Source: Cristatella mucedo (taxonomy: Eukaryota > Bryozoa > Phylactolaemata > Cristatellidae). From it: a DNA stretch of 64,000 nt. Positions 7,043 through 64,000 of the stretch are shown here, piece after piece. The notes under the pieces were generated by a model. The model searched no databases, had not been told where the DNA came from, and was given only the letters and a program-made list of their open reading frames with translations. The DNA lies in NCBI GenBank assembly GCA_009760855.2, contig WPIO01000233.1, forward strand, positions 106,212 through 170,211, written 5' to 3'. Positions within the stretch are counted from its first letter, which is position 1. Every line of letters begins with the position of its first letter. The position numbers and the translations under genes are program-made.

Positions 7043-7411
7043 ATGCAGCGGCAGGCACAGAGGCGTAGAAAGGCCGTGTGGAAGAAAAATAATCAGTTGG
7101 TTGAACTTTATAGGGCAGTGACAGCCATTATTACTTGAAAGCCATTTCTGCCTGCACACGTTTAGTGAGAGCAGAGCAATGACAAGGCATGCTCGGATGC
7201 GAATCCGTGCTGTATGGCTGTGTGCATAGGCGCCTCTGCTTGTCATTGTAGCCTTTCAATGAGACTTTGGAAAGATGTTTTGCCGTCTATCTATCTTGAC
7301 ATTTACGTGTTGTTAATCTGAATGTCAGTACAAATTGATACAAGCCTGGTAATTTAGCTAATGAATAGCTGTCTTGTAGCTTGTTCTGACATTGCAGCTA
7401 AATTTTTTTAG
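7043..7411 (+). other. Region just upstream of first coding exon
   Basis: No gene or repeat recognised. It ends in GACATTGCAGCTAAATTTTTTTAG, a plausible 3' splice site, so a 5' non-coding exon probably lies further left. It is not identifiable by eye. Confidence 0.35.
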
Positions 7412-7413
7412 AT

Positions 7414-7644
7414 ATGGCTACTCATGTCACGCAGCATGAGACGGTTGACCTATCTCTTGAGAACATTGAAAGGATTCCAGATGACCTGTTGGCGAAGGCC
7501 AGTTCAGTTTTATCGCTCAATTTAAGTGGCAAAAGCAGCATGGTTTGGACTGAGGATTTAGAGAAGTTTGAAAATGTCAGGCGACTGTTTCTTCGAAACT
7601 GCAGGTTTTCAGAGCTGCCGAAGGCTATAATCTGTCTTACAAAA
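7414..7644 (+). CDS. First coding exon of LRR protein (77 codons)
   Basis: The ATG at 7414 has G at -3 and G at +4. It lies two bases after a T-rich AG (7410-7411), which suggests a non-coding exon upstream. The frame runs 231 bp to a strong donor GTAAGT at 7645. The 77 residues contain about three LRRs: one around VDLSLENIERIP (residues 11-22), one around VLSLNLSGK (32-40), and one around VRRLFLRNCRFSELP (55-69). It ends in CLTK, which joins in register to the LEEL start of the next exon type. No signal peptide is seen. The exon ends in phase 0, matching all downstream exons. The frame stays open for 14 codons beyond the donor, but the donor and LRR register favour the splice. The protein family beyond LRR is not recognisable. 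Confidence 0.75.
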
Positions 7645-10436: not shown

Positions 10437-10577
10437 CTCGAGGAGCTCAATATTGATGGGAATAAAACTCTTGGCAAGCTACCTTCATTCATATGTCAAC
10501 TAAAAGCACTGAAGAAGCTTAACATTAGGAGGTGTGGCTTGTCAAGTCTACCTGATAGTTTAGAACAGCTGACATCG
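10437..10577 (+). CDS. LRR exon, 141-bp class, intact (unit 1)
   Basis: Acceptor TCGTTTAG ends at 10436 and donor GTAAGG starts at 10578; the exon is 47 codons, open, phase 0 at both ends. It encodes two consecutive LRRs. The first (24 residues) starts LEELNIDGNKTLGKLPSF. The second (23 residues) starts LKKLNIRRCGLSSLPD. The exposed beta-strand residues are N5, D7, N29, R31 and R32. It is the first of seven intact exons of this class and belongs to an older duplication shared with the exon at 25060. Confidence 0.82.
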
Positions 10578-16722: not shown

Positions 16723-16861
16723 CATGACGAGCTCAAAATTGAAGGTAATAAAACTCTTAGCCAGCTATCTTTATTCCCATGTCAGCTGAAAGCTCTTAAG
16801 AAGTTTAACACTGGGGTGTAGCTTGTCACGTATACCTGATGGTTTGAAACGGCTGACAACT
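16723..16861 (+). pseudogene. Frameshifted 141-bp LRR exon (unit 3)
   Basis: After the acceptor TCTTTTAG the frame reads HDELKIEGNKTLSQL and continues to LKKFN, then a stop. The exon is 139 bp, two short of the class; the lost bases lie near the AACATTGGGAGC position, and the donor GTAAGG has become GTTAGG. Both a frameshift and a damaged donor make inclusion in a functional mRNA unlikely. Confidence 0.75.
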
Positions 16862-19054: not shown

Positions 19055-19195
19055 CTTGAGGAGCTCAATATCGGTGAGAATAACACTCTTGGCAAGCTAC
19101 CTTCATTCATATTTCAACTAAATGCACTGAAGAAGCTTAACATTGGGAGCTGTGGCTTGTCAAGTCTACCTGATGGTTTGGAACGGCTGATATCG
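19055..19195 (+). CDS. LRR exon, 141-bp class, intact (unit 4)
   Basis: Acceptor TCGTTTAG and donor GTAAGG bound 47 open codons. The first repeat begins LEELNIGENNTLGKLPSF and the second LKKLNIGSCGLSSLPD. Variable surface residues are G7, E8, N10, G31 and S32, unlike any other copy. The CRE-like octamer upstream is mutated here (TTATGTCA), the only intact exon without a perfect one. Confidence 0.8.
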
Positions 19196-22157: not shown

Positions 22158-22243
22158 CTTAAGGAGCTCAATATCGGTGGGAATGACACTCATGGCAAGC
22201 TACCTTCATTCATATGTCAGCTAGTTTAGAACGGCCGACATCA
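22158..22243 (+). pseudogene. 141-bp LRR exon with 55-bp internal deletion (unit 5)
   Basis: The start (LKELNIGGN) and the donor GTAAGG are both preserved, but the segment from the end of LRR 1 to near the end of LRR 2 is missing: 86 bp remain of 141. The 55-bp loss shifts the frame and gives a stop right after the junction. Splice sites are intact, so inclusion would truncate the protein. Confidence 0.8.
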
Positions 22244-25059: not shown

Positions 25060-25200
25060 CTCGAGGAGCTCAATATTGGTGGGAATAGAAATCTTGGTGA
25101 CCTACCTTCATTCATCTTTCAACTTGGAACACTGAAGACGCTCAACATTGAGTGGTGTGGCTTGTCAAGTCTACCTGACGGTTTGGCTCGGCTGACATTG
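25060..25200 (+). CDS. LRR exon, 141-bp class, intact (unit 6)
   Basis: Acceptor TCGTTTAG at 25052-25059; donor GTATGG at 25201, weaker than the GTAAGG of other units. Open for 47 codons, with repeats beginning LEELNIGGNRNLGDLPSF and LKTLNIEWCGLSSLPD. It differs from all others at R10, D14, E31 and W32 and ends LTL rather than LTS. The downstream intron closely resembles that of the exon at 10437 (compare 27001-27210 with 11880-12110), showing a larger segmental duplication. Confidence 0.8.
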
Positions 25201-40564: not shown

Positions 40565-40650
40565 CACGAAGAACTTAATATAGAAGGAAATGAAACTCTT
40601 GGCAAGCTTCATTCATGTGTCAACTCAAATCACTGAATAGGCTCTGAAGG
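40565..40650 (+). pseudogene. Decayed 141-bp LRR exon (unit 9)
   Basis: Acceptor mutated (TTAG to TTAA). It reads HEELNIEGNETLGKL, then a frameshift within CTACCTTCATTC. After about 85 bp the sequence jumps to the intron block CTCATCGGCAATA that normally lies 0.5 kb later, so the end of the exon and its donor are deleted. Confidence 0.7.
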
Positions 40651-44889: not shown

Positions 44890-45030
44890 CTCGAGGAGCT
44901 CGATATCAGTGGTAATAAAACTCTTGGTGAGCTACTGTCATTCATATGTCAACTGAATGCACTGAAAAAGCTCAACATCAGTTCCTGTGGCTTGTCAAGT
45001 CTACCCGATGGTATGGAACAGCTGACATCG
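44890..45030 (+). CDS. LRR exon, 141-bp class, intact (unit 11)
   Basis: Acceptor TCGTTTAG, donor GTAAGG, 47 open codons. Repeats begin LEELDISGNKTLGELLSF and LKKLNISSCGLSSLPD; the usual P16 is L here. D5 and S7 link it to the three exons further right, while T11 L12 G13 link it to those further left, so it is intermediate in the array. Confidence 0.82.
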
Positions 45031-45828
45031 GTAAGGTTGTATAGAACACAAAAACGTGTATGTTTATTTCTTGGTTAAGTGGGCTTGCAAGTATTGTTTG
45101 CTAGCAGAGTTAGTAGGGGTTCATGGTTATCCAGTAAAACGATATAAAGCTTGCCTAGATTGTATGTGCTTGCATATCATCTGCAGATCTTGCAATACCT
45201 GAATAACGTTTACTTATATCGTATACGTTTTTCGTAGTTTAGGGCCAACGCACTGACAGGGTACGATTTGATTTTCTTAAACAATCAACTCGTAATTGGA
45301 CGATAAAAGGCCCATTTAAAACTTATTTAGCTTATTGAAGAGTCTCATTTGTATCATAGTAAAGAAGGCCAATTGGCAACGACATCAGCTACCACATAGG
45401 AATAAAGTATTACGTGAAGGCAGAATTCGAATACACAACCACATCGCTGGTTAAGAGGATGCACGTTTTTCCGTTAAACCATGAGGAAGACGGATTCAAC
45501 TGTTGAGCACAGGCTGTATGCTTTTGAAAATCTTGTTTTACGAATAGTCTCAAAATTCCTGCTCAAGCCATATTGAAACGTTCAACCTTGATTGCTGCGT
45601 GGTCGGGAGAGAATCAGAAAAAGTAGGTAGCAGAATAGGATAACAATTCAAGTACAGCTGACGATCAGGAGCATATAAGGTGTAGGTACTAATGGGCTCG
45701 GGGAGAAAATCTCTTATACCTAGGACATATTTGAAACGAACGATTAAACAACGTGCAATCACCACGCAAAAAACTTGATAGTCCAGCCACTACTCTGCAC
45801 TTCGCTCCAAGCTGCTCAGCATAAATAA

Positions 45829-46359
45829 TAATAAAAATATTAGTTCACTTGATAAAGCGCCCTCAGAGGACTTAATCTCTCTCTGGGCGCTTTACATTTG
45901 CTGTAAATTGAAATGGAATTGAATGGTAAGTAGAATCATGCTTGAAAAAACAAACACAATTAATAATATGGTTAAGGGTGACATGCACAGGGTCAGCATG
46001 CAAATCTGGTTAGTGGCAGCAAGCACAGTGTCAGCATGCATAAGCACATCAAAGACGAATCACAGGGACCCACTAAATACTGTCCAAAATAGGTGTGTTT
46101 TATGTTCCTTTTAAATGTGGTCGGGTCAGGGTATGTTCTGACTCAGGTCGAAAGGGATTTCCAGGCTTTAGAAGCATGCGAATTAAATGCATGGTCTACA
46201 CAGGATTTAAGGTTTGTACGAGGTGTTTCTAGACTTTCGGATTCCGAAAATCGGGTGATACGATGCTTGGCCTGATGGGGGAGTATATCTGAGAGATAGG
46301 CTGGAGCCATAGAATTAAGGGACTAAAAAGTGAGCGACCAAACCTTGAAGTCAATCCGT
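45829..46359 (-). mobile_element. LINE remnant, minus strand (copy 1)
   Basis: On the minus strand: the end of the reverse-transcriptase ORF (SPAYLSDILPHQAKHRI-type in the better copies), the 3' UTR with GTGGGTCCCTGTGATTCG, and the GGGCGCTTTATCAAGTGAA tail. The 5' part is missing. Counterparts at 51835 and 57895. Confidence 0.7.
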
Positions 46360-46935
46360 GTTCGTGATCCGTCGATCCGCACCTCAATGATTCTTCAATC
46401 CTTTAATATATGTTCGCGATCTTTTTCTTTCCCTACACCATATTCCATTAAGCGAGTGCAATTACGTCAGCCGACAGACAGAAAAGATGCCATACGTCCT
46501 ACCCTATTTCCTGGTTGTAGAGTGGCATCTGTGAGAGAACCCTAATACATATATGCTAAAGGATACAGCACTGCTTATCTAATGCATTCAGTCTATGCTA
46601 GCAGAGTGGCAGGAACTAGGTATGTTTATAACTTTAGATGCAAACGGTGGAGTTACCGACTTTAATGACGGTATGTCAAATGAACTTCCTTTTTGAGAAG
46701 GCTGCAACATGCATAACTGCTGGCATGTGCACAATAACAGCTGAACTAACCCGACTTTTGAGAAAAATAGGCATTTTGAAAAAGCAGAAGAAAAACTTTA
46801 AGCTTTCATAGGAAAGGCCGATTTTTAATTAGCTAGCTAAATAGGTGAAAAGATTAAAAACAGTAGTGTTTGTTTAGCATTTCAAAAAACGGTTCTGATA
46901 GGACGTTGTTTTGGCTCAATTTGAACGTTAAGCGA

Positions 46936-46963
46936 CCAACACAGGCTGGTTAAAAAACAAAAA
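46936..46963 (+). other. Exon-loss junction, copy 1
   Basis: Pre-exon block (GAACGTTAAGCGACCAAC) joined directly to post-exon block (AACGTGTCTGTTTATTTC). Every 6-kb unit therefore contains two ancestral units but only one exon. Confidence 0.6.
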
Positions 46964-47086
46964 CGTGTCTGTTTATTTCTTGCTGGAATGGGACTGCAGA
47001 TATTGTTTGCTGGCTGGTTTAGTAAGGTTTCCGGGTTAACCAGTAAAGCAGTTTAAAGCATGCCTACATTGCATGCCCTTGCATAT

Positions 47087-47839
47087 CTTGGCTAATATTC
47101 GGGCTTGTTTAGATAAGCATACCACGTCCAAGTTGGTCAACGAATTCGTGACATCCCGTCTCGACTTTTGCAACTTACTGCATACTGGCCCAACAGCATG
47201 TGCGTTCAGGCGATTGCAGCTGGTGCAAAACTCTGCAGCTAGGCTTGTCTGTCGTGAGCGTCGCAGTTGCCACATTACTCCCTTTCTTGCCGACCTGCAC
47301 TGGCTACCAGTCAAGCAACGGACTGACTTCAAGGTTTTGTCGCTCACTTTTAGTTCCCTTCATTCTATGGTTCCAGCCTATCTTTCAGATATACTACCCC
47401 ATCATGCCAAGCATCGTACAATCAGCTTTTCGGAATCCAACAGTCTAGAAATACCTCATAGTAACCTTAAGTCCTTTGGAGACCGTGCATTTAGTTCATA
47501 TGCTGCCAAAGCCTGGAACTGCCTCCCTACCTGCGTCAGAACATCCCCTGACCTGACCACATTTAAAAGGAACCTAAAAACACCTATTTAGTGGGTCCCT
47601 GTGATTCTTCCTTGATGTGCTTATGGGTGCTGACACTGTACATGCTGCCACTAACCACATTTGCATGCTGACCCTGTGCATGTCACCTCTAACCATATTA
47701 TTCATTTCGTTTGTTTTTCAGGCATTATTTTACTTACCATTTAATTGCCTTACACTTTACAGCAAATGTAAAGCTTCTAGAGAGTGATTAAGTTCTCTGA
47801 GGGTGCTTTATCGAGTGAATTATTATTATTATTATTATA
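47087..47839 (+). mobile_element. CR1/L2-like LINE, 5'-truncated (copy 1)
   Basis: A 170-codon open frame (to 47591) covers the C-terminal end of a non-LTR reverse transcriptase: LVQNSAARLVCRERR, DLHWLPVKQRTDFKVL, and SSYAAKAWNCLPTCVRTSP, all hallmarks of CR1/L2/Rex-type elements. A 3' UTR and a (TTA)n tail follow, ending at 47839. The unit at 42110-42135 (TTGCATATATTCAGCAGATC) shows the unoccupied site. The insertion predates the 6-kb amplification, since all three copies carry it at the same place. No endonuclease or catalytic RT motif is present. Confidence 0.85.
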
Positions 47840-47936
47840 GCAGATCATGCAATCACAGAATATTATCTACTTACATGACATACATTGTTCATTATTTTTA
47901 GGCAGTCTCATGAAAGGGTAGGATGCAGTATATTAT

Positions 47937-48037
47937 CAATAAATAAATAAATATATATGTATATATATATAAATATGCATACAGATATATTTATATATAT
48001 ATGTTTTTTAAATATATATATACACTTGTATATATTT
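47937..48037. repeat. AT-rich microsatellite (copy 1)
   Basis: (AAAT)n then (AT)n with GCATACA interruptions. It lengthens in copies 2 and 3 (53978-54100; 60043-60218) and accounts for much of the unit length difference. Confidence 0.88.
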
Positions 48038-49687
48038 TGCTATCTAACCTCAACGAACTATATAACGTTGAGTCCGGTTTAACAGGACGTGTATTTCGAC
48101 ATTACAATTACGAGTGATTATTGCTTTACATTGACTTCCTAATGTACCTTGCTCTTATGTTGTCAGGCTAGGGGACTGTAATGACACTGGCCAGTCGCCC
48201 AATCTGTTTACTTACACTTAAATTCACTGATATATCAGCAAATCCACTAGAAGTAGTCAGAGCTGTGGTCAAATTGGCTTCCTATTTCCATACTTTTACA
48301 GTCCAAGTTACCACAGAACAAGCTGCACCAATATATCACCTAGGGTAATTGCTACTAAAGCTGGTGCAATTACTTGCAATTAAACAATTAAACGCTTAGG
48401 GCAACGTCCCCACATATATTTTCTGCCCGAGTGTTTCACGTTTGAAAGTGCACACAAGGCATTAGCCACAATTCAGGTGGTGGATGCACTTGGGCTTAAC
48501 GATTGGTGTGAATAACGTTCCTGGTTGGTGACCAATGGTTTTGTAAACAATGACAGCGCACTTCGCAATGATTGATTACTGGTAAATCCTACACTTTTGA
48601 AAGTTTACTGAGTTCGAAAAGACGTCTGTGGGGCAAGCAGCAGTTGCATAGATCACCACCTTTCAGAATCCCTTTTCATGAAACAGATTCGCGAACGACT
48701 AGCATGACCACTATTACCTTCAGCAATCGCTTACGTATTCGTAATCCTACTTTTTCTGTCCACCATAACCTGTTAAGCAAGAGAAATTTCGTCAGCCGAC
48801 TCAGTCAAACGATGCCAAACGTCTAACCCTATTGGCAGGTTATTGAGCTGCATGTTTGTGAGTTTCAGAGATTAAACTAGATGCTAAAAGTCATTTCACC
48901 ATGCTGCTAATGCATCTAGTTTATGCTAGCCGAGAGGCAGGAACGCGTATTATTTCTATAGTGTCGGATGAAAACTGTGAAAGTGTCGACCTCTTTGACG
49001 GCACTTCAAAAAAGCTCCGTTTTCGAGAAGGCAGGGTTAAGCTTTGGCACCGGCTAGAGAAATATATATCTAGACTAACTGGGCTGCTAAGAAAAAGAGG
49101 GATATTTAGACGGGAGAAGGAAAGCAATAAGCGTTTATCTTGAATTCAGGTAACAATTTAGCAAGCTAAATTAGTTAAAAGATTACAGTCAGCAGCGATC
49201 GACAGGCGTTTCAAATCGGTTACATAGGACGTTGGTTTGGTTTCATTGAAACATTAGGCGTCCTAATGGTGCACCATTTTAAGCTTTGTGTGTCAGTTTA
49301 ATGGTATCAAGCTGCACGGCCGATGCATTTAGTAAGATAGCCAGCAGCTTGACATAGAGTGAGTTTTACCACAAGTTGACGAACTAATCGTTCACAACCA
49401 ACGAATCTAGCCTGCAAAATGACTTTGAAGCACGAATTGATGTCGGTATTTCCGACCCAATGAATGCTAAAAACCCTAGGGATTTTGAGGGTCCAACTAA
49501 CTGGTTGAATTAGAACTGTAAAATTTCGGCATTGATAACTGTAGGCACTATGCACATAAGTTTAACGACAAACCTATCACTTAATATGAACTATTTCATG
49601 GGGGCTAAGGACATAACAAGCCATCACTGTTTTGTGGATAGGAAGTGGCTGATAGGCTCTACAGTGATCCTCATTCCCATTATTCGA

Positions 49688-49695
49688 TGACGTCA
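49688..49695. promoter_or_regulatory. CRE-like TGACGTCA before exon 49864
   Basis: Perfect octamer 176 bp upstream of the intact exon. Confidence 0.3.
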
Positions 49696-49863
49696 TACTA
49701 CTACTGCATACCAGCTGCATTTAAGTATGCATGGACTTACCTGAATATTGTGAAAGCCGTCTTTCAGGCGTGCATGTGTATAAGTAAGATGATGCAAGTC
49801 TGTTTTTTATCGTTACTTTTTTATTCTCCAATATATCTTTTATCGGTAACCAATGTCGTTTAG

Positions 49864-50004
49864 CTAGAGGAGCTCGAAATCAGTGGGAATACAAGTCTTT
49901 GCCAGCTACCTTCGTGCATATGTCAACTGAAAGCACTGAAGAAGCTTGCCATTAGAGAGTGCGGCTTGTCAAGTCTCCCTGACGGCTGGGGACAGCTGAC
50001 ATCG
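49864..50004 (+). CDS. LRR exon, 141-bp class, intact (young copy 1)
   Basis: Acceptor TCGTTTAG, donor GTAAGG, 47 open codons. Repeats begin LEELEISGNTSLCQLPSC and LKKLAIRECGLSSLPD, with the three-copy signature C13, C18, W42 and G43. Variable residues in this copy: E5, T10, A29, R31, E32. Its flanking introns are nearly identical to those of the copies at 55923 and 62034. Confidence 0.85.
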
Positions 50005-51834
50005 GTAAGGCTGCATAAAACACTGAAACGTGTGCGTTTAATTTTTTATGAAATGTGCATGCAAGTATTGTTTGCTAGCAGGGTTAGTACGGGTTCATGG
50101 TTATTCAGTAAAATGATTTTGGTCTTGCCTAGATTGCATGTGCTTGCATGTTCTCTGCAGATCATGCAATAACTGAATAACGTTTACTTATATCCCATAA
50201 TTTGTTCTTGTAGTTTAGGGCTAATGCACTGACAGATACAATTCTGTTTTCCTAAACAATCAGCAGTTATTCGACGATAAAACGGCCGTTTTAAACATTA
50301 TTAGCTTATAGGAGAGTCTCATTTGTCTCATTGTAAAGTTGGCTCATCGGCAATGACAACGACTACCACTTAGGGAATAAAGTATTACATAAAGGCAGAA
50401 TTCGAATACCGACCACCTCAATGGTTAAAAGGAGGCACGTTTTTCAATCGGCCCTCGAGGAAGACAGATTCAACTGCTAATCTCTACTGGAATGCTACTG
50501 AAAGTCTTGTTTTAGGGAATACTTTGAAAAAGTGCACACAAGCAACAGTGAAAGGGTCAACTCGGCTGGCTGCATAGTCGCAGAGAGAATCAGAAACACC
50601 GGGTAGCAGAATAAGAATAAAGATCATTACAGTGTCCAATCAGGAACATATAGGCAGAAGCTTCCAACATTCTTGGGAAGGAATCACTTAGACCTTCAGC
50701 CTAATTAAAACGAACGGATGAACGACGTACAGCCAGCATGAAAAGACTGAAACAGTCCTGCTGCTACTCACCACGTGCCTACGAGCTACTCAATCGCGAG
50801 GCTTGCTCTCATGCAGTGGAGAAATGAGACAACCAAAGCGAGCCATGCTGGAAAACTTGCAGTTTTGATGTGTTTGACACTGCACAAGCGTTTCTCAGTG
50901 CCTGTAGCTATTGTTTGCTTCCCATACCCATGTGGTTATCAAATCGGTATTAGGCGGTCCTAACAGTCTCCCACAGCTGCCTCTTTTGAATGTGGTCAAG
51001 CTTTTGCAGCCTGCATGGCTACGTGCACCTTATCAGTCTCGTCACATGTATGTGATCACTCTCATATGAGAATGCTGCATCAATCGAGCAGACACGTTGA
51101 ATAGGAGAATAAAATATTGATTCACTGTGCATACTGATCTAATCATCTAACCTATACGAATGTATTACAGTGGATCCGATTTAACCGGACGTGTGTTTTG
51201 ACGTGAAAATTGCCAGTGCCAATTTCGTAACATCGACTTCATAATGTACCTAGTTCTCCTGTTGTTAGACTAGACGACTGTGAGGACATTGGCCATTCGC
51301 CCAATCTAATTGAGATTACTCAAATCCTTTGAATTATCAGCAATTCCACTAGGAGCAGTCAGAGCTGTTGTCAAATCAGTTTATCATATAGATCCTTTTT
51401 TATGTACAAGTGACCAAACCAAAAGTTGCACCACTGTGTCACCCAGGGTGATTGCCATAAAAGCTGGTGCAATCGCCTCCAATTAAACAATAAACTTGTG
51501 TGGTAACGTCTGCACATATGTTTTCCGGTTGAGTGTTTCACGTTTGAAAGTGCTCTCAAGGCATTAGCCACAATTCAGGTTGTAGAGGCACTTAGGCAAA
51601 ACGATTCAAGTGTATAATGTGCCTGTTTGGTAACCGACGGTTTTGAATTTAATGACAGAGCACGTTCCAACGATCGAATACTGGTAAAATCTTACACTTT
51701 TGAAAGTTTACTGGGTTCTAAAAGACCTCAGTGGGGCAAGTAGTTGCATAGATCACCACCTTTCACTATCGCTTCATTCAATCAGATTCTTGAACAATTA
51801 GCAAGGCAACTAATATGTACAACAATCACCTACA

Positions 51835-52385
51835 TAATAATATTGATAATGCACTTGCTAAAGCTCACACAGAGAACTCATTTTTTTCTAGGCACTTTAC
51901 TTTTGCTGCAAAGTGAAATGCAATTGAATGGTAAGTATAATTATGCTTGAAAAACAAACACAATGAATAACGTAATTAGGGGTGACATGCACAGGGTCAG
52001 CATGCAAATATGGTTAGTGGCAGCAAGCACAGTGTCAGCATGCATAAGCACATCAAGGACGAATCACAGGGACCCACTAAATGCTGTCCAAAATAGGTGT
52101 GTTTTAAGTTCCTTTTAAATTTCCTTTCCTTTCCTTTTAAATGTGGTCAGGTCAGGGGATGTTCTGACGCAGGTCAGGAGGGAATTCCAGGCTTTGGGAG
52201 CATACGAACTAAATACACGGACTCCACAGGATGTAAGGTTTGTACAAGGCATTTCTAGACTTTTGGATTCCGAAAATCGGGTGATACGATGCTTGGCCTG
52301 ATGGGGGAGTATATCTGAGAGATAGGCTGGAGCCATAGAATTAAGGGACTAAAAAGTGAGCGACTAAACCTTGAAGTCAATCCGT
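51835..52385 (-). mobile_element. LINE remnant, minus strand (copy 2)
   Basis: As at 45829, but with a diverged tail (TAATAATATTGATAATGCAC) and a short TTTCC duplication near 52120-52138. It sits between CAATCACCTACA and the block that begins ATATGTTCGCGATC, the undisturbed insertion context. Confidence 0.7.
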
Positions 52386-53110
52386 GTTCGAGATCCGTCG
52401 ATCCGCACCTCAATGATTCTCCAATCCTTTAATATATGTTCGCGATCTTTTTCTTTCCCTACACCATATTCCGTTAAGCGAGTGCAATTACGTCAGCCGA
52501 CAGACAGAAACGATGCCATACGTCCTACCCTATTTCCTGGTTGTAGAGTGGCATCTGTGAGAGGACCCTAATACATATATGCTAAAGGATACAGCACTGC
52601 TTATCTAATGCATTCAGTCTATGCTAGCAGAGTGGCAGCAACTAGGTATTTTTATGACTTTAGATGAAAACGGTTGAGTTATCGACTTTAATAACGGCAT
52701 GTCAAATAAATTTCTATTTTGAGAATGCTGCGATATGCATAACATCTGGCATGTGCACAATAATAGCTGAACTAACCTGACTTTTGAGAAAAATAGGTAT
52801 TTTGAAAAAGTCGATGAAAAACTTTAAGCTTTAATAGGAAAGGCACATTTTAATTTAGCTAGCTAAATAGGTTAAAAGATTACAAACAGTAGTGTTTGTT
52901 TAGCATTTCAAAAACGGTTCTGAGAGGACGTTGTTTTGGTTAAATTTGAACGTTAAGCAACCAACACAGGCTGGTTTAGAAAAAAAACACGTCTGTTTAT
53001 TTCTTGCTGGAACGGGACTGAAGATATTTTTTGCTCACTGGTTTAGTAAGGTTTCCGGGTTAACCAGTAAAGCAGTTTAAAGCATGCCTACATTGCATGC
53101 CCTTGCATAT

Positions 53111-53877
53111 CTTTGCTAAAATTCGGGCTTGTTTAGATAAACATACCACGTCCAAGTTGGTCAATGGATGCATTACATCCCGTCTCGACTTTTGCAACTG
53201 ACTGCTTACTGGCCCACCAACATGTGCGATCAGGCGATTGCAGCTGGTGCAAAACTCTGCAGCTAGGCTTGTCTGTCGTGAGCGTCGCAGTTGCCACATT
53301 ACTCCCTTTCTCGCCGACCTGCACTGGCTACCAGTCAAGCAACGGATTGACTTCAAGGTTTTGTCGCTCACTTTTAGGTCCCTTCATTCTATGGCTCCAG
53401 CCTATCTTACAGATATACTACCCCATCAGGCCAAGCGTCATACCATCCGCTTTTCGGAATCCAACAGTCTAGAAATACCTCATACTAACCCTAAATCCTT
53501 TGGAGACCGTCATTTAGTTCATATGCTCCCAAAGCCTGGAACTGCCTCCCTACCTGCGTCAGAACATCCCCTGACCTGACCACATTTAAAAGGAACCTAA
53601 AAACACACCTATTTAGGACAGCATTTAGTGGGTCCCTGTGATTCATCCTTGATGTGCTCATGGGTGCTGACACTGTGCATGCTGCCACTAACCACATTTG
53701 CATGCTGACCCTGTGCATGTCACCCCTAACCATATTATTTATTTCGTTATTTTTTTCAAGCATGATTTTACTTACCATTTAATGCCCTTTCCCTTTACAT
53801 CAAATGTAAAGCTTCTACTACGAGATTAAGTTCTACGAGGTCGCTTTATCAAGTGAAATATTATTATTATTATTATA
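53111..53877 (+). mobile_element. CR1/L2-like LINE, 5'-truncated (copy 2)
   Basis: Same insertion as at 47087. The frame is broken near 53510 by a one-base loss in the GACCGTCATTTAG region, so it carries no full C-terminal frame. Confidence 0.82.
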
Positions 53878-53977
53878 GCAGATCATGCAATAACAGAATA
53901 TTATCTACTTAAATGACATACATTGTTTATTAGTTTTAGGCAGACTCATGACAGGGTAGAATGCAGTATATTATCAA

Positions 53978-54100
53978 TAAATGAATAAATAAATAAATAA
54001 ATAAATATATATATATATACATACATATATATATGCATATATATATATTTATATATATATGCTTAGTAAATATATATATATACACTTTTATATATTTTAT
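53978..54100. repeat. AT-rich microsatellite (copy 2)
   Basis: Longer (AAAT)n and (AT)n version of the tract in copy 1. Confidence 0.88.
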
Positions 54101-55746
54101 CATTTAACCTTAACAACTATATAACGTTGGGTCCGATTTAACCGGACGTGTATTTCGACATGACAATTACGAGTGATCATTGGTTTACATTGACTTCCTA
54201 ATGTACCTTGCTCTCTTGTTGTCAGGCTAGGTGACTGTAATGACACTGGCCAGTCGCCCAATCTGATTGATTACACTCAAATTCACTGATATATCAGCAA
54301 ATCCACTAGAAGCAGTCAGAGCTGTGGTCAAATTGGTTTCCTATTTCCATTCTTTTACAGTCCCAGTGACCATAGAACAAGCTGCACCACTTGATCACCT
54401 AGGGTAATTGCTACTAAAGCTGGTGCAATTACTTGCAACTAAACAATTAAACGCTCAGGGCAACGTCCCCACATATATTTTCTGCCCGAGTGTTTCACGT
54501 TTGAAAGTGCACACAAGGCATTAGCCACAATTAAGGTGGTAGATGCACTTGGGCTTAACGATTTGTGTGAATAACGTTCCTGGTTGGTGACCAATGGTTT
54601 TGCATGCAATGACAGAGCACTTCGCAATGATCGATTACTGGTAAATCCTACACTTTTGAAAGTTTACTGAGTTCGAAAAGACGTCAGTGGGGCAAGCAGC
54701 AGTTGCATAGATCACCACCTTTCAGAATCCCTTAAATGAAACAGATTCGCGAACGACTAGCATGACCACTATTACCTTCAGCAATCGCTTACGTATTCGT
54801 AATCCTACTTTTTCTGTCCACCATAACCTGTTAAGCAAGAGAAATTTCGTCAGCCGACTCAGTCAAACGATGCCAAACGTCTAACCCTATTGGCAGGTTA
54901 TTGAGCTGCATGTTTGTGAGTTTCACAGATTTAACTAGATGCTAAAAGATAACGCACCATGCCCCTAATGCATCTAGTTTATGCTAGCCGAAAGGCAGGA
55001 ACACGTATTATTTCTATAGTGTAGGATGAAAACAGTAAAAATGTCGACCTTTTTGACGGCACTTCAAAAAAGCTCCGTTTTCGAGAAGGCAGCTTTATGC
55101 CTTAGCACCGGCTAGGGAAATATTTATCTAGACTAACTGGGCTTCTAAGAAAAAGAGGGATATTTAGATGGGAGAAGGAAAGCAATAAGCGTTTATCTTG
55201 AATTCAGGTAACAATTTAGCAAGCTAAATTAGTTAAAAGATTACAGTCAGTAGCGATTGACAGGCGTTTCAAATCTGTTACATAGGACGTTGGTTTGGTT
55301 TCATTGAAACATTAGGCGTCCTAATGGTGCACCATTTTAAGCTTTGTGTGTCAGTTTAATGGTATCAAGCTGCACGGCCGATGCATTTAGTAAGATAGCC
55401 AGCAGCTTGACATAGAGTGAGTTTTACCACAAGTTGACGAACTAATCGTTCACAACCAACGATTCTAGCCTGCAAAATGACTTTGAAGCACGAATTGATG
55501 TTCGGTATTTCCGACCCAATGAATGCTAAAAACCCTAGGGATTTTGAGGGTCCAACTAACTGGTTGAATTAGAACTGTAAAATTTCGGCATTGATAACTG
55601 TAGGCACTATGCACATTAGTATAACGACAAACCAATCACTTAATATGAAGTATTTCATGGGGGCTAAGGACATAAGAAGCCATCACTGTTTTGTGGATAG
55701 GAAGTTGCTGATAGGCTCTACAGTGATCCTCATTCCCATTATTCGA

Positions 55747-55754
55747 TGACGTCA
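55747..55754. promoter_or_regulatory. CRE-like TGACGTCA before exon 55923
   Basis: Perfect octamer 176 bp upstream of the intact exon. Confidence 0.3.
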
Positions 55755-55922
55755 TACTACTACTGCATACCAGCTGCATTTAAGTATGCATGGACTTACC
55801 TGAATATTGTGAAAGCCGTCTTTCAGGCATGCATGTGTATAAGTAAGATGATGCAAGTCTGTTTTTTATCGTTACTTTTTTATTCTCCAATATATCTTTT
55901 ATCGGTAACCAATGTCGTTTAG

Positions 55923-56063
55923 CTAGAGGAGCTCCAAATCAGTGGGAATAGAAGTCTTTGCCAGCTACCTTCGTGCATATGTCAACTGAAAGCACTGAAG
56001 AAGCTTGACATTAGCGAGTGTGGCTTGTCAAGTCTCCCTGACGGCTGGGGACAGCTGACATCG
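55923..56063 (+). CDS. LRR exon, 141-bp class, intact (young copy 2)
   Basis: Same splice sites and length as 49864. Repeats begin LEELQISGNRSLCQLPSC and LKKLDISECGLSSLPD. Against copy 1 the changes are E5Q, T10R, A29D and R31S, plus one silent change in the C33 codon. All four replacements are at or next to exposed positions of the LRR beta-strands; the leucine/isoleucine frame is untouched. Confidence 0.85.
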
Positions 56064-57894
56064 GTAAGGCTGCATAAAACACTGAAACGTGTGCGTTTAA
56101 TTTTTTTATGAAATGTGCATGCAAGTATTGTTTGCTAGCAGGGTTAGTACGGGTTCATGGTTATTCAGTAAAATGATTTTGGTCTTGCCTAGATTGCATG
56201 TGCTTGCATGTTCTCTGCAGATCATGCAATAACTGAATAACGTTTACTTATATCCCATAATTTGTTCTTGTAGTTTAGGGCTAATGCACTGACAGATACA
56301 ATTCCGTTTTGCTAAACAATCAGCAGTTATTCGACGATAAAACGGCCGTTTTAAACGTTATTAGCTTATTGGAGAGTCTCATTTGTCTCATTGTAAAGTT
56401 GGCTCATCGGCAATGACAACGACTACCACTTAGGGAATAAACTATTACGTAAAGGCAGAATTCGAATACCGACCACCTCAATGGTTAAAAGGAGGCACGT
56501 TTTTCAATCGGCCCTCGAGGAAGACAGATTCAACTGCTAATCTCTACTGGTATGCTACTGAAAGTCTTGTTGTAGGGAATACTTTTAAAAAGTGCACACA
56601 AGCAACAGTGAAAGGGTCAACTCGGTTGGCTGCATAGTCGCAGAGAGAATCAGAAACACTGGGTAGCAGAATAAGAATAAAGATCATTACAGTGTCCAAT
56701 CAGGAGCATATAGGCATAAGCTTCCAACAGGCTTGGGAAGGAATCAATTAGACGTTCAAACAAATTAAAACGAACGGATGAACGACGTACAGCCAGCATG
56801 AAAAGACTGTTACAGTCCTGCTGCTACTCACCACTTGCCTACGAGCTACTCAATCGCGTGGCTTGCTCTCATGCAGTAGAGAAATGAGACAACTAAAGCG
56901 AGCCATGCTGGAAAACTTGCAGTTTTGATGTGTTTGACACTGCACAAGCGTTTCTCAGTGCCTGCAGCTATTGTTTGCTTCCCATATCCATGTGGTTATC
57001 AAATCGGTATTAGGCGGTCCTAACAGTCTCCCACAGCTGCCTCTTTTGAATGTGGTCAAGCTTTTGCAGCCTGCATGGCTACGTGCACCTTATGAGTCTC
57101 GTCACATGTATCTGATCATTCTCATATGAGAATGCTGCATCAATAGAGCAGACACGTTGAATAGGAGAATAAAATATTGATTCACTGTGCATACTGATCT
57201 AATCATCTAACCTATACGAATGTATTACAGTGGATCCGATTTAACCGGACGTGTGTTTTGACGTGAAAATTGCCAGTGCTAATTTCGTAACATTGACTTC
57301 ATAATGTACCTAGTTCTCCTGTTGTTAGACTAGACGACTGTGAGGACATTGGCCAGTCGCCCAATCTAATTGAGATTACTCAAATCCTCTGAATTATCAG
57401 CAATTCCACTAGAAGCAGTCAGAGCTGTTGTCAAATCGGTTTCCCATATAGATCCTTTTTCATGTACAAGTGACCAAACCAAAAGTGGCACCACTGTATC
57501 ACCCAGGGTGATTGCGATAAAAGCTGGTGCAATCGCCTCCAATTAAACAATAAACATGTTTGGTAACGTCTGCACATATGTTTTCCGGTTGAGTGTTTCA
57601 CGTTTGAAAGTGCTCGCAAGGCATTAGCCACAATTCAGGTTGTAAAGGCACTTAGGCAAAACGATTCAAGTGTATAATGTGCCTGTTTGGTAACCGACGG
57701 TTTTGAATTTAATGACAGAGCACGTTCCAACGATCGAATACTGGTAAAATCTTACACTTTTTAAAGTTTACCTGGTTCTAAAAGACCTCAGAGGGGCAAG
57801 TAGTTGCATAGATCACCACCTTTCAGTATCACTTCATTCAATCAGATTCTTGAACAATTAGCAAGGCAACTAATATGTACAACAATCACCTACA

Positions 57895-58445
57895 TAATAA
57901 TATTGATAATGCACTTGCTAAAGCTCACAGAGAGAACTCATTTTTTCTAGGCACTTTAGTTTTGCTGCAAAGTGAAATGCAATTGAATGGTAAGTATAAT
58001 TGTGCTTGAAAAACAAACACAATGAATAACGTAATTAGGGGTGACATGCATAGGGTCAGCATGCAAATATGGTTAGTGGCAGCAAGCACAGTGTCAGCAT
58101 GCATAAGCACATCAAGGACGAATCACAGGGACCCACTAAATGCTGTCCAAAATAGGTGTGTTTTAAGTTCCTTTTAAATTTCCTTTCCTTTCCTTTTAAA
58201 TGTGGTCAGGTCAGGGGATGTTCTGACGCAGGTCAGGAGGGAATTCCAGGCTTTGGGAGCAAACGAACTAAATACACGGTCTCCACAGGATGTAAGGTTT
58301 GTACAGGGCATTTCTAGACTTTTGGATTCCGAAAATCGGGTGATACGATGCTTGGCCTGATGGGGGAGTATATCTGAGAGATAGGCTGGAGCCATAGAAT
58401 ATAGGGACTAAAAAGTGAGCGACCAAACCTTGAAGTCAATCCGTG
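57895..58445 (-). mobile_element. LINE remnant, minus strand (copy 3)
   Basis: As in copy 2, including the TTTCC duplication near 58180-58197, which shows copies 2 and 3 share this change against copy 1. Confidence 0.7.
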
Positions 58446-59171
58446 TTCGAGATCCGTCGATCCGCACCTCAATGATTCTTCAATCCTTTAATATATGTTC
58501 GCGATCTTTTTCTTTCCCTACACCATATTCCGTTAAGCGAGTGCAATTACGTCAGCCGACAGACAGAAACGATGCCATACGTCCTACCCTATTTCCTGGT
58601 TGTAGAGTGGCATCTGTGAGAGGACCCTAATACATATATGCTAAAGGATACAGCACTGCTTATCTAATGCATTCAGTCTATGCTAGCAGAGTGGCAGCAA
58701 CTAGGTATTTTTATGACTTTAGATGAAAACGGTTGAGTTATCGACTTTAATAACGGCATGTCAAATAGACTTCCTTTTTGAGAAGGCTGCGATATGCATA
58801 ACATCTGGCATGTGCACAATAATAGCTGAACTAACCTGACTTTTGAGAAAAATAGGTATTTTGAAAAAGCAGAAGAAAAACTTTAACCTTTAATAGGAAA
58901 GGCACATTTTAATTTAGCTAGCTAAATAGGTGAAAAGATTACAAACAATAGTGTTTGTTTAGCATTTCAATAAACGGTTCTGATAGGACGTTGTTTCGGT
59001 TCAATTTGAACGTTGAGCAACCAACACAGGCTGGTTTAAAAACAAAAACGTGTCTGTTTATTTCTTGCTGGAATGGGACTGCAGATATTGTTTGCTGGCT
59101 GGTTTAGTAAGGTTTCCGGGTTAACCAGTAAAGCAGTTTAAAGCATGCCTACATTGCATGCCCTTGCATAT

Positions 59172-59938
59172 CTTTGCTAAAATTCGGGCTTGTTTAGATA
59201 AACATACCACGTCCAAGTTGGTCAATGCATGCATTACATCCCGTCTCAACTTTTGCAACTGACTGCTTACTGGCCCACCAGCATGTGCGATCAGGCGATT
59301 GCAGCTGGTGCAAAACTCTGCAGCTAGGCTTGTCTGTCGTGAGCGTCGCAGTTGCCACATTACTCCCTTTCTCGCCGACCTGCACTGGCTACCAGTCAAG
59401 CAACGGATTGACTTCAAGGTTTTGTCGCTCACTTTTAGGTCCCTTCATTCTATGGCTCCAGCCTATCTTACAGATATACTACGACATCAGGCGAAGCATC
59501 GTACCATCAGCTTTTCGGAATCCAACAGTCTAGAAATACCTCATACTAACCCTAAATCCTTTGGAGACCATACATTTAGTTCATATGCTCCCAAAGCCGG
59601 TAACTGCCTCCCTACCTGCGTCAGAACATCCCCTGACCTGACCACATTTAAAAGGAACCTAAAAACACACCTATTTAGGACAGCATTTAGTGGGTCCCTG
59701 TGATTCTTCCTTGATGTGCTTATGGGTGCTTACACTGTGCATGCTGCCACTAACCACATTTGCATGCTGACCCTGTGCCTGTCACCTCTAACCATATTAT
59801 TCATTTCGTTTATTTTTCAGGCATTATTTTACTTACCATTTAATTGCCTTACACTTTACAGCAAATGTAAAGCTTCTAGAGAGTGATTAAGTTCTCTGTG
59901 GGTGCTTTATTGAGTGAATTATTATTATTATTATTATA
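59172..59938 (+). mobile_element. CR1/L2-like LINE, 5'-truncated (copy 3)
   Basis: Same insertion as at 47087 and 53111, with an open C-terminal frame from 59299 to 59703 reaching the natural stop (TFKRNLKTHLFRTAFSGSL end). Not mobile on its own, since the catalytic domains are missing. Confidence 0.82.
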
Positions 59939-60042
59939 GCAGATCATGCAATAACAGAATATTATCTATCTATTATCTACTTACATGACATACATTGTTT
60001 ATTAGTTTTAGGCAGACTCATGACATGGTAGGATGCAGTATA

Positions 60043-60086
60043 TTATTAATAAATGAATAAATAAATAAATAAATAAATAAATATAG

Positions 60087-60119
<33 letters not shown>

Positions 60120-60218
60120 TGCATACATATATATTTATATATATATGCATACATATTTATTTATATATATATGTTTAATAAATATATATATATACACTTT
60201 TATATATTTTATCATCTA
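60043..60218. repeat. AT-rich microsatellite (copy 3)
   Basis: Longest of the three tracts, with a further internal duplication of ATATGCATACATAT. Confidence 0.88.
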
Positions 60219-61858
60219 ACCTCAACCAACTATATAACGTTGGGTCCGATTTAACCGGACGTGTATTTCGACATGACAATTACGAGTGATCATTGCTTTA
60301 CATTGACTTCCTAATGTACCTTGCTCTTGTGTTGTCAGGCTAGGCGACTGTAATGACACAGGCCAGTCGCCCAATCTGATTGATTACACTTAAATTCACT
60401 GATATATCAGCAAATCCACTAGAAGCAGTCAGAGCTGTGGTCAAATTGGTTTCCTATTTCCATTCTTTTACAGTCCAAGTGACCATAGAACAAGTTGCAC
60501 CACTTTATCACCTAGGGTAATTGCTACTAAAGCTGGTGCAATTACTTGCAATTAAACAATTAAACGCTCAGGGCAACGTCCCCACATATATTTTCTGCCC
60601 GAGTGTTTCACGTTTAAAAGTGCACACAAGGCATTAGCCACAATTCAGGTGGTGGATCCACTTGGGCTTAACGACTGGTGTGAATAACGTTCCTGGTTGG
60701 TGACCAATGGTTTTGCAAGCAATGACAGAGCACTTCGCAATTATCGATTACTGGTAAATCCTACACTTTTGAAAGTTTACTGAGTTCGAAAAGACGTCAG
60801 TGGGGCAAGCAGCAGTTGCATAGATCACCACCTTTCAGAATCCCTTTAATGAAACAGATTCGCGAACGACTAGCATGACCACTATTACCTTCAGCAATCG
60901 CTTATGTATTCGTAATCCTACTTTTTCTGTCCACCATAACCTGTTAAGCAAGAGAAATTTCGTCAGCCGACTCAGTCAAACGATGCCAAACGTCTAACCC
61001 TATTGGCAGGTTATTGAGCTGCATGTTTGTGAGTTTCACAGATTTAACTAGATGCTAAAAGATATCCCACCATGCTGCTAATGCATCTAGTTTATGCTAG
61101 CCGAAAGGCAGGAACACGTATTATTTCTATAACGTAGGATGAAAACAGTGGAAATGTCGACTTTTTCGACGGCACTTCAAAATAGTTCCCTTTTCGAGAA
61201 GGCAGTGCTAGGCCTTAGCACCGGCCAAGGTAATATATATCTAGACTAACTGGGCTGCTAAGAAAAAGAGGGATATTTAGACGGGAGAAGGAAAGCAATA
61301 AGCGTTTATCTTGAATTCAGGTAACAATTTAGCAAGCTAAATTAGTTAAAAGATTACAGTCAGTAGCGATTGACAGGCGTTTCAAATCGGTTACATAGGA
61401 CGTTGGTTTGGTTTCATTGAAACATTAGGCGTCCTAATGGTGCACCATTTTAAGCTTTGTGTGTCAGTTTAATGGTATCAAGCTGCACGGCCGATGCATT
61501 TAGTAAGATAGCCAGCAGCTTGACATAGAGTGAGTTTTACCACAAGTTGACGAACTAATCGTTCACAACCAACGATTCTAGCCTGCAAAATGACTTTGAA
61601 GCACGAATTGATGTCGGTATTTCCGACCCAATGAATGCTAAAAACCCTAGGGATTTTGAGGGTCCAACTAACTGGTTGAATTAGAACTGTAAAATTTCGG
61701 CATTGATAACTGTAGGCACTATGCACATAAGTTTAACGACAAACCTATCACTTAATATGAACTATTTCATGGGGGCTAAGGACATAACAAGCCATCACTG
61801 TTCTGTGGATAGGAAGTTGCTGATAGGCTCTACAGTGATCCTCATTCCCATTATTCGA

Positions 61859-61866
61859 TGACGTCA
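61859..61866. promoter_or_regulatory. CRE-like TGACGTCA before exon 62034
   Basis: Perfect octamer 175 bp upstream of the intact exon (one T lost from a run between them). Confidence 0.3.
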
Positions 61867-62033
61867 TACTACTACTGCATACCAGCTGCATTTAAGTATG
61901 CATGGACTTACCTGAATATTGTGAAAGCCGTCTTTCAGGCGTGCATGTGTATAAGTAAGATGATGCAAGTCTGTTTTTTATCGTTACTTTTTATTCTCCA
62001 ATATATCTTTTATCGGTAACCAATGTCGTTTAG

Positions 62034-62174
62034 CTAGAGGAGCTCGATATCAGTGGGAATACAAGTCTTTGCCAGCTACCTTCGTGCATATGTCAACTGA
62101 AAGCACTGAAGAAGCTTGACATTAGAGGGTGCGGCTTGTCAAGTCTCCCTGACGGCTGGGGACAGCTGACATCG
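62034..62174 (+). CDS. LRR exon, 141-bp class, intact (young copy 3)
   Basis: Same splice sites and length. Repeats begin LEELDISGNTSLCQLPSC and LKKLDIRGCGLSSLPD. Against copy 1 the changes are E5D, A29D and E32G; against copy 2 they are Q5D, R10T, S31R and E32G. The donor side intron is identical to copy 1 for about 270 bases as read by eye. Confidence 0.85.
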
Positions 62175-63438
62175 GTAAGGCTGCATAAAACACTGAAACG
62201 TGTGCGTTTAATTTTTTATGAAATGTGCATGCAAGTATTGTTTGCTAGCAGGGTTAGTACGGGTTCATGGTTATTCAGTAAAATGATTTTGGTCTTGCCT
62301 AGATTGCATGTGCTTGCATGTTCTCTGCAGATCATGCAATAACTGAATAACGTTTACTTATATCCCATAATTTGTTCTTGTAGTTTAGGGCTAATGCACT
62401 GACAGATACAATTCTGTTTTCCTAAACAATCAGCAGTTATTCGACGATAAAACGGCCGTTTTAAACATTATTAGCTTATTGGAGAGTCTCATTTGTCTCA
62501 TTGTAAAGTTGGCTCATCGGCAATGACAACGACTACCACTTAGGGAATAAACTATTACGTAAAGGCAGAATTCGAATACCGACCACCTCAATGGTTAAAA
62601 GGAGGCACGTTTTTCAATCGGCCCTCGAGGAAGACAGATTCAACTGCTAATCTCTACTGGTATGCTACTGAAAGTCTTGTTTTAGGGAATACTTTTAAAA
62701 AGTGCACACAAGCAACAGTGAAAGGGTCAACTCGGCTGGCTGCGTATACACAGAGAGAATCAGAAACACCGGGTAGCAGAATAAGAATAAAGATCATTAC
62801 AGTGTCCAATCAGGAACATATAGGCATAAGCTTCCAACAGGCTTGGGAAGGAATCACTTAGACCTTCAGCCTAATTAAAACGAACGGATGAACGACGTAC
62901 AGCCAGCATGAAAAGACTGTAACAGTCCTGCTGCTACTCACCACTTGCCTACGAGCTACTCAATCGCGAGGCTTGCTCTCATGCAGTAGAGAAATGAGAC
63001 AACTAAAGCGAGCCATGCTGGAAAACTTGCAGTTTTGATGTGTTTGACACTGCACAAGCGTTTCTCAGTGCCTGTAGCTATTGTTTGCTTCCCATATCCA
63101 TGTGGTTATCAAATCGGTATTAGGCGGTCCTAACAGTCTCCCACAGCTGCCTCTTTTGAATGTGGTCAAGCTTTTGCAGCCGGCATGGCTACGTGCACCA
63201 TATCAGTCTCGTCACATGTATACGATCACTCTCATATGAGAAAGCTGCATCTATCGAGCAGACACGTTGAATAGGAGAATAACATATTGATTCACTGTGC
63301 GTACTGATCTAATCATCTAACCTATGCGAATGTATTACAGTGGATCTGATTTAACCGGACGTGTGTTTTGACGTGAAAACTGCCAGTGCTAATTTCGTAA
63401 CATTGACTTCATAATGTACCTAGTTCTCCTGTTGTTAG

Positions 63439-63548
63439 ACTAGACGACTGTGAGGACATTGGCCAGTCGCCCAATCTAATTGAGATTACTCAAATCCTCT
63501 GAATTATCAGCAATTCCACTAGAAGCAGTCAGAGCTGTTGTCAAATCG
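63439..63548 (+). pseudogene. Class-3 LRR relic exon (110 bp)
   Basis: Follows GTTGTTAG. One frame gives LDDCEDIGQSPNLIEI and the +1 frame LLKSSELSAIPLEAVRAVV. The two together fit the LRR pattern LxxLxLxxTxLxxIP if one base is discounted. It is the best preserved example of the class, yet still carries stops in every single frame across its length. Confidence 0.45.
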
Positions 63549-64000
63549 GTTTCCCATATAGATCCTTTTTTATGTACAAGTGAACAAACCAAAAGTTGCA
63601 CCACTGTATCACCCAGGGTGATTGCCATAAAAGCTGGTGCAATCGCCTCCAATTAAACAATAAACTTGTGTGGTAACGTCTGCACATATGTTTTCCGGTT
63701 GAGTGTTTCACGTTTGAAAGGGCTCGCAAGGCTTTAGCCACAATTCAGGTTGTAGAGGCACTTAGGCAAAACGACTCAATTGTATAATGTACCTGTTTGG
63801 TAACCGACGGTTTTAAATTTAATGAGAGAGCACGTTCCAACGATCGAATACTGGTAAAATCTTACACTTTTGAAAGTTTACTGGGTTCTAAAAGACCTCA
63901 GTGGGGCAAGGAGTTGCATAGATCACCACCTTTCACTATCGCTTCATTCATTCAGATTCTTGAACAATTAGCAAGGCAGCTAATATGTACAACAATCACC

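Follow-up and report, generated by a model that had tools for sequence, protein, structure and literature searches.

Evidence for diversifying selection at particular codons of tandem cassette exons in a putative leucine-rich-repeat ROCO gene of the bryozoan Cristatella mucedo

The stretch analysed here is a window of 64,000 nucleotides from the bryozoan Cristatella mucedo (NCBI GenBank assembly GCA_009760855.2, contig WPIO01000233.1), which corresponds to C148:106212-170211 of the assembly searched (572 Mb, 688 contigs). C148 is the label of the contig carrying the window, and C49, C150 and similar labels denote other contigs of this assembly. The window holds an array of small cassette exons on the plus strand, each of them 141 bp long, with phase 0 at both ends and coding for two leucine-rich repeats (LRRs) that resemble those of SHOC2 and LRRD1. 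Spacing between cassettes ranges from about 3 to 20 kb. Most likely they belong to a gene of the LRR-ROCO type, which is described further below. Three of the cassettes, termed A, B and C, lie in tandem units of 6 kb at the right end of the window and are the main subject of the comparison:

45828..51833, + strand: tandem unit A, 6.0 kb, 94-95% identity to the next units
51834..57893, + strand: tandem unit B, 6.06 kb
57894..64000, + strand: tandem unit C, 6.1 kb; the array runs past the window into copies D and E
49864..50004, + strand: cassette exon A, 141 bp, LEELEISGNTSLCQLPSCICQLKALKKLAIRECGLSSLPDGWGQLTS
55923..56063, + strand: cassette exon B, 141 bp, LEELQISGNRSLCQLPSCICQLKALKKLDISECGLSSLPDGWGQLTS
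62034..62174, + strand: cassette exon C, 141 bp, LEELDISGNTSLCQLPSCICQLKALKKLDIRGCGLSSLPDGWGQLTS
49160..50559, + strand: low-divergence stretch that includes exon A and has counterparts in B and C; 21 of its 1258 noncoding sites vary

Exons A, B and C differ at 7 of 141 sites, located in codons 5 (twice), 10, 29, 31, 32 and 33; six of the changes replace the amino acid, and the one in codon 33 is silent. In their flanks (180 bp upstream and 275 bp downstream) 3 of 453 ungapped columns are variable, and there are two indels of a single T. These counts exactly reproduce those of a preliminary description of this DNA, which had concluded that the exon diverges faster than its own introns and that drift would not give such a contrast. 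The first statement holds close to the exon (Fisher p 0.0023 with the 180 and 275 bp flanks, 0.020 with ±300 bp, 0.017 with ±500 bp and 0.09 with ±700 bp), but not over the whole 6-kb unit, where 378 of 5853 noncoding sites are variable (6.5%, as against 5.0% in the exon). Within the unit, the exon belongs to the 1.4 kb with the lowest divergence (exon against the noncoding sites of this stretch, p 0.018), the intron near the exon is relatively alike also among the four old copies and A, and a local contrast of equal or greater strength is seen in 210 of 4343 noncoding windows of 141 bp, which form 3 clusters. Because the near-exon introns are unusually alike and divergence over the full unit exceeds that of the exon, the argument against drift fails if it is drawn from the exon-intron contrast alone, and this contrast, matched as it is by noncoding windows, was rejected as a proof of selection in itself. 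The 6:1 ratio of replacement to silent changes was likewise rejected, as 6 of 7 nonsynonymous changes are not unusual by chance (P 0.33-0.46).

The changes are concentrated at the exposed LRR positions, and here the preliminary description was borne out: the ten canonical xxLxLxx codons hold 5 of the 6 nonsynonymous changes of A, B and C (p 0.003). With 5 of 30 sites variable these ten codons lie above the rate of the whole unit (p 0.042), and the six central ones, codons 5, 7, 8, 29, 31 and 32, do so with 5 of 18 sites (p 0.005), which compares with 21 of 1258 in the low-divergence stretch. Along the unit the odd copy out shifts, being mostly A on the left and B or C in parts near and to the right of the exon, i.e. 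units A-C appear to carry a mosaic history of exchange.

Two further units, D and E, follow the window on C148. The end of C49 aligns collinearly with C148:172.9-187.2 kb (97-98% identity) and carries two more copies, G and F, which because of this collinearity are probably alleles of D and E; the alternative is a recent segmental duplication. The resulting young group (Y) comprises copies A-G, whereby a decayed copy at C49:984561, one of eight young DNA matches, was omitted. Among these seven copies 12 of the 17 variable exon sites fall in codons 5, 10, 29, 31 and 32. Residue 5 reads E, Q, D, D, Y, Q and T, and residue 32 reads E, E, G, R, R, W and A, while all residues but 5, 7, 10, 13, 29, 31 and 32 are fixed, apart from a stop at codon 33 in G. 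Diversity (pi) is 0.055 in the exon, 0.014 in the upstream flank and 0.035 in the downstream flank. The exon as a whole is not significantly more variable than the flank (17 of 141 versus 33 of 442 sites, p 0.067), but the six central codons clearly are (11 of 18 sites, p 3e-8), as are the ten canonical codons (11 of 30, p 2e-5). Outside the canonical ten and codons 10-11 the remaining 105 nt of the exon have a pi of 0.015, lower than the flanks with about 0.027. Selection would appear to act on particular codons and not on the exon at large.

The probable alleles were compared in pairs. Between D and G, 11 of 141 exon sites differ. The changes lie in codons 5, 7, 10, 29, 31, 32 and 33, each of which has an altered residue or gives a stop, and they are more frequent than in the flank (13 of 443, p 0.015) and in the whole collinear stretch (312 of 14293, p 0.0003). 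E and F differ at 6 of 141 sites in 4 codons (replacements in 5, 10 and 32, a silent change in 17), compared with 3 of 455 sites in the flank (p 0.007).

For the codon-based tests we used our own implementation of the M1a/M2a site models on fixed trees built from exon and flank, and not PAML. M2a was favoured over M1a in the seven young copies with 2ΔlnL (twice the difference in log-likelihood) of 51.2, and the value was 43.2 without copy G, 45.6 with a star tree and 42.9 with an exon-only tree, while the highest value obtained in 40 simulations under M1a was 7.5. With only A, B and C the statistic was 8.15, which was not reached in any of 60 simulations. Codons 5, 10, 31 and 32 obtained posteriors of 0.99-1 in all five runs of the young group and codon 29 exceeded 0.5 in four of them; amino-acid diversity on the ten-codon pattern was above that of all 46 shifted versions. 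Copies D-G from beyond the window, whose addition the preliminary description had proposed, thus strengthened the signal, both at the central codons and in the codon model. The diversifying selection put forward there is strongly supported by the added copies and the probable second haplotype for particular, mostly exposed LRR codons of the young cassettes; it does not extend to the exon as a whole.

In the codon models two other array groups of the genome agree with this. Group Z stems from C150/C274 (12 of 14 exons used, two frame-disturbed copies being dropped) and group W2 from C173/C215/C263/C491 (16 of the 21 matches listed on C173, C215 and C263 and at C491:26168). Both favour M2a, group Z with 2ΔlnL 35.3 (star tree 62.5) and group W2 with 39.7 (star tree 68.6). 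Sites above 0.5 are 4, 8, 10, 11, 13, 14, 29, 31, 32, 38 and 44 in Z, and 5, 7, 8, 10, 11, 13, 17, 29, 31, 32 and 37 in W2. Shifted ten-codon patterns reach the observed value in 6 of 46 cases in Z and 2 of 46 in W2. Eight codons including 10 and 11 are above the flank in both groups (Z p 0.004, W2 p 0.008), and the six central codons of W2 have a pi of 0.41 versus 0.18, with p 0.064 by site counts. A further group, W1 (C509/C193/C470/C491), was restricted to counts on 18 very similar copies, with C509:24623 and a second exon type on these contigs left out. On the W1 contigs C193, C470, C491 and C509 near-identical cassettes recur in high copy number with a period of 3.8 kb, forming an array of their own that is unlike the one of the window.

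The array can be placed in a wider gene model. A probable first coding exon and four more intact cassettes lie in the window upstream of the tandem units, along with decayed copies:

7414..7644, + strand: probable first coding exon, 77 aa, beginning with ATG, two LRR-like repeats; phase-0 donor GTAAGT at 7645, open frame 7402-7686
10437..10577, + strand: intact 141-bp two-LRR cassette exon, profile match E 4e-32, splice sites TTTAG/GTAAGG
16726..16858, + strand: decayed cassette exon with broken frame, profile match
19055..19195, + strand: intact 141-bp two-LRR cassette exon, profile match
22158..22223, + strand: truncated cassette exon, profile match
25060..25200, + strand: intact 141-bp two-LRR cassette exon, donor GTATGG
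40568..40621, + strand: truncated and decayed cassette exon, profile match
44890..45030, + strand: intact 141-bp two-LRR cassette exon, profile match

On C148 the start exon, nine intact cassettes (the seven of the window plus D and E, with several decayed ones besides) and a large frame coding for a closing LRR and a Roc domain follow each other in this order on one strand, and all junctions are in phase 0. The large frame, 634 aa at C148:193020-194921, opens after a phase-0 acceptor and begins with the closing LRR; the stretch just before it, C148:190000-193020, was searched for cassettes with a loose pattern only. Residues 65-177 of this frame form a Roc GTPase domain (PF08477, E 1e-9, 38.9 bits with a cut-off of 27). 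The frame matches the LRRK1 and LRRK2 structures, and the sole Roc relative returned, in a search that scored the 7995 candidates with the most words in common, was an amphioxus MFHAS1 homologue (27% identity across 424 columns). Its alignments to the MFHAS1 homologue and to LRRK1 run well past Roc; the Pfam domain COR-A was not found in the Roc exon, and its one match in the genome search was located elsewhere and fell below the threshold. The start exon has a homologue (231 bp, with donor) on C150, and the best 120 of 477 homologues of the concatenated cassette exons are general LRR proteins only.

Genome-wide there are at least 150 matches to the two-LRR exon (150 of 219 candidates were scored), and at least 33 loci on 31 contigs carry matching exons, two of these contigs having been added from the DNA search with young copies and six loci having a single match. 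Of 106 Roc matches, 21 have a frame of at least 440 aa, a limit that was set after the list of frames had been seen. Because 17 of the 33 loci are followed by such a frame no more than 30 kb downstream and in the same orientation, and because an array precedes 17 of the 21 frames, start exon, cassettes and Roc exon most likely constitute one LRR-ROCO gene of about 81 kb, a type of gene that is most likely repeated through the genome. Some of the loci are probably haplotype copies of each other (C148/C49, C150/C274). In the former pair, C49:957600-961200 on the minus strand is about 96-100% alike to C148 as far as the initial portion of the Roc exon and about 7-32% different through the rest of it. 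The breakpoint thus falls within this exon, which looks as though its GTPase end had undergone exchange or replacement.

We consider it probable, clearly beyond an even chance, that a single LRR-ROCO gene carries the exons as interchangeable cassettes in tandem and that its presumed contact residues are under positive selection. Tandem duplication, unequal crossing-over and conversion would multiply the cassettes and homogenise them together with flanking intron, splice sites and scaffold, while selection would keep and spread differences at the contact residues as exchange evens out the remainder. With phase 0 at both ends of each cassette, the reading frame would be kept whatever their number, and gain, loss, skipping or any splicing choice should likewise leave it intact. 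Residues 5, 7, 8, 29, 31 and 32 are predicted to lie on the concave face of the LRR horseshoe, and residue 10 to follow the pattern; this assignment was made from the LxxLxL pattern and not from a structure. Residues 5, 29, 31 and 32 would thereby line the concave ligand-binding face, and the most likely role of the array would be to recognise ligands that change, microbes or non-self being examples.

Several observations speak against this interpretation, in addition to the higher divergence of the whole unit and the noncoding windows of equal contrast in A-C. Exon use, splicing and the joining of the array to the Roc exon are deduced from the sequence. Recombination among copies can inflate codon tests, and 67 of 595 informative site pairs are incompatible in the seven young copies, which indicates exchange or recurrent change; the use of star and exon-only trees removes this concern only in part. 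The stop at codon 33 mentioned above interrupts copy G, and the exon difference between E and F does not stand out from the collinear stretch in its entirety (p 0.089), where 2258 of 13384 windows reach the same level. In group Z the whole exon is not above the flank (38 of 141 versus 102 of 452 sites, p 0.17), in group W2 it is even lower (64 of 141 versus 226 of 396, p 0.99; lower at p 0.011), the ten canonical codons taken alone do not significantly exceed the flank in either group (Z p 0.13, W2 p 0.6), and some of the selected sites are off the concave face (4, 13, 14, 38 and 44 in Z; 13, 17 and 37 in W2). In W1 the exon is more conserved than the flank (13 of 141 versus 70 of 436 sites). 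Regarding the gene model, 16 of the 33 loci, some on short contigs, are without a Roc frame of the given size, and the Roc counterpart on C49 is strongly diverged, with a gap that breaks the frame.

Part of the pattern would also result if local conversion had recently homogenised the flanking introns while the exon kept its average divergence, with no positive selection involved. This agrees with an exon divergence below the unit mean, with the noncoding windows of equal contrast, with the position of the exon within the least diverged 1.4 kb, with near-exon introns that are more alike in the old copies too, and with the incompatible site pairs. Such conversion would homogenise the exon as well, however, yet the residual variation is focused in particular codons, in the young copies as well as in two other array groups, and outside these codons the young exon is no less uniform than the intron; we regard this explanation as unlikely. 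Exposed LRR residues are generally tolerant of change, and the nearly invariant scaffold residues would fit relaxed constraint at the exposed codons beside a strictly constrained scaffold, again with no positive selection. This is disfavoured because relaxed sites should not outpace the adjoining intron, yet the six central codons do so in the seven young copies (11 of 18 versus 33 of 442), in A-C (5 of 18 versus 21 of 1258) and by pi in W2, though not so clearly by the site counts there. Unless the intron beside the exon were strongly constrained as well, relaxed constraint appears quite improbable to us.

The variants could also be written into the contact codons in a directed manner, by micro-conversion from donor cassettes or by codon-targeted mutation. 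Codon states do recur in different combinations (CAA5 in B and F, AGC31 in B, E and F), and GAT5, AGA10 and TGT33 occur in older copies too. Four variant codons of A-C, namely CAA5, GCC29, AGC31 and GGG32, are however present in none of the four older intact copies of the window, and the idea of the preliminary description that conversion imported the variants into the exon was rejected insofar as the older exons in the window were to be a sufficient source. The recurrence of CAA5 and AGC31 among young copies may go back to exchange among these copies or to recurrent mutation. The changes are scattered single bases, no donor tract is seen, and selection on random mutation suffices; directed diversification is, if anything, slightly less probable still than relaxed constraint. 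Errors of assembly or sequencing seem hardly credible as the origin of the exon differences. Both single-T indels lie in T runs, which are a common place for single-base indel errors, but the exon changes are substitutions, and the codons concerned recur among the seven young copies, which come from two contigs, as well as in other arrays.

Our searches of open-access literature listed no report of such an LRR-ROCO cassette array in an animal. Arthropod Dscam1 and lamprey VLR also have clusters of alternative recognition cassettes, but the exons of Dscam1 encode immunoglobulin domains, and lamprey VLR depends on gene assembly instead of ordinary introns. Animal LRR-Roc-COR proteins of the MFHAS1/MASL1 type share the predicted order of LRRs followed by Roc and putatively COR-like sequence, and an amphioxus homologue of this type gave the 27% match above; a tandem hypervariable exon array is not among their features in the descriptions drawn upon. 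The LRR modules of vertebrate NLR proteins are likewise encoded on separable exons and subject to alternative splicing, but these are NLR and not Roc proteins, and the portions of the source consulted do not describe tandem near-identical units (PMC6642158). The closest parallel concerns the LRR-ROCO genes of brown algae, for which the consulted portions of the sources describe shuffled 72-bp phase-2 exons, each coding for one repeat of 23-24 aa (PMC11378527), as well as splice variants and four positively selected sites on the concave face (PMC11378527, PMC4104024). The array shares with them the LRR-Roc order, tandem in-frame LRR exons and positive selection at concave-face residues, along with extra exon copies in noncoding sequence and a proposed immune role (PMC11378527, in the same portions). 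M2a is favoured in all three groups Y, Z and W2, as in the case of the brown-algal concave-face selection, though some of the Z and W2 sites lie elsewhere. Unlike the 72-bp phase-2 single-repeat exons described there, the exons found here are of 141 bp, phase 0 and two repeats, and because exon size, repeat number and phase differ, although architecture and selected face agree, we do not assign the array to the brown-algal system.

We only tentatively suggest, giving it somewhat less than an even chance, that an animal genome here contains an LRR-ROCO family (17 loci, some of them probably haplotype copies) with positively selected two-repeat cassettes, which would provide a combinatorial repertoire for intracellular recognition independent of the brown-algal one. 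If so, distant multicellular lineages would have arrived twice at the same solution, a ROCO protein with swappable, fast-evolving ligand-binding repeat exons. Human ROCO proteins such as MFHAS1 are called poorly understood in the consulted part of PMC4104024, and if selection acts strongly on the contact face of a relative, this would suggest ligand sensing as an old role. The array also offers a clean case for reading selection codon by codon against near-identical intron.

Some minor features accompany the array. About 630 bp upstream of each young exon a block with weak matches to the LRR profile is found (49234-49374, 55292-55432, 61405-61545 and equivalents), which recurs in other units and is probably repeated intron and not an exon. 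An Rfam scan of the window gave no match. Every 6-kb unit contains remnants of a long interspersed nuclear element (LINE) reverse transcriptase (45825-47838, 51834-53873 and 57894-59934), with inverted copies of about 530-550 bp on either side. Duplication of the unit probably copied this insertion along with it. A further reverse-transcriptase-like LINE remnant at 1247-1984 on the minus strand, outside the array, is similar in sequence to those of the units. Among 120 of 1071 relatives of a LINE fragment, the named ones are from fish and a brittle star, and the closer ones are metagenome sequences.

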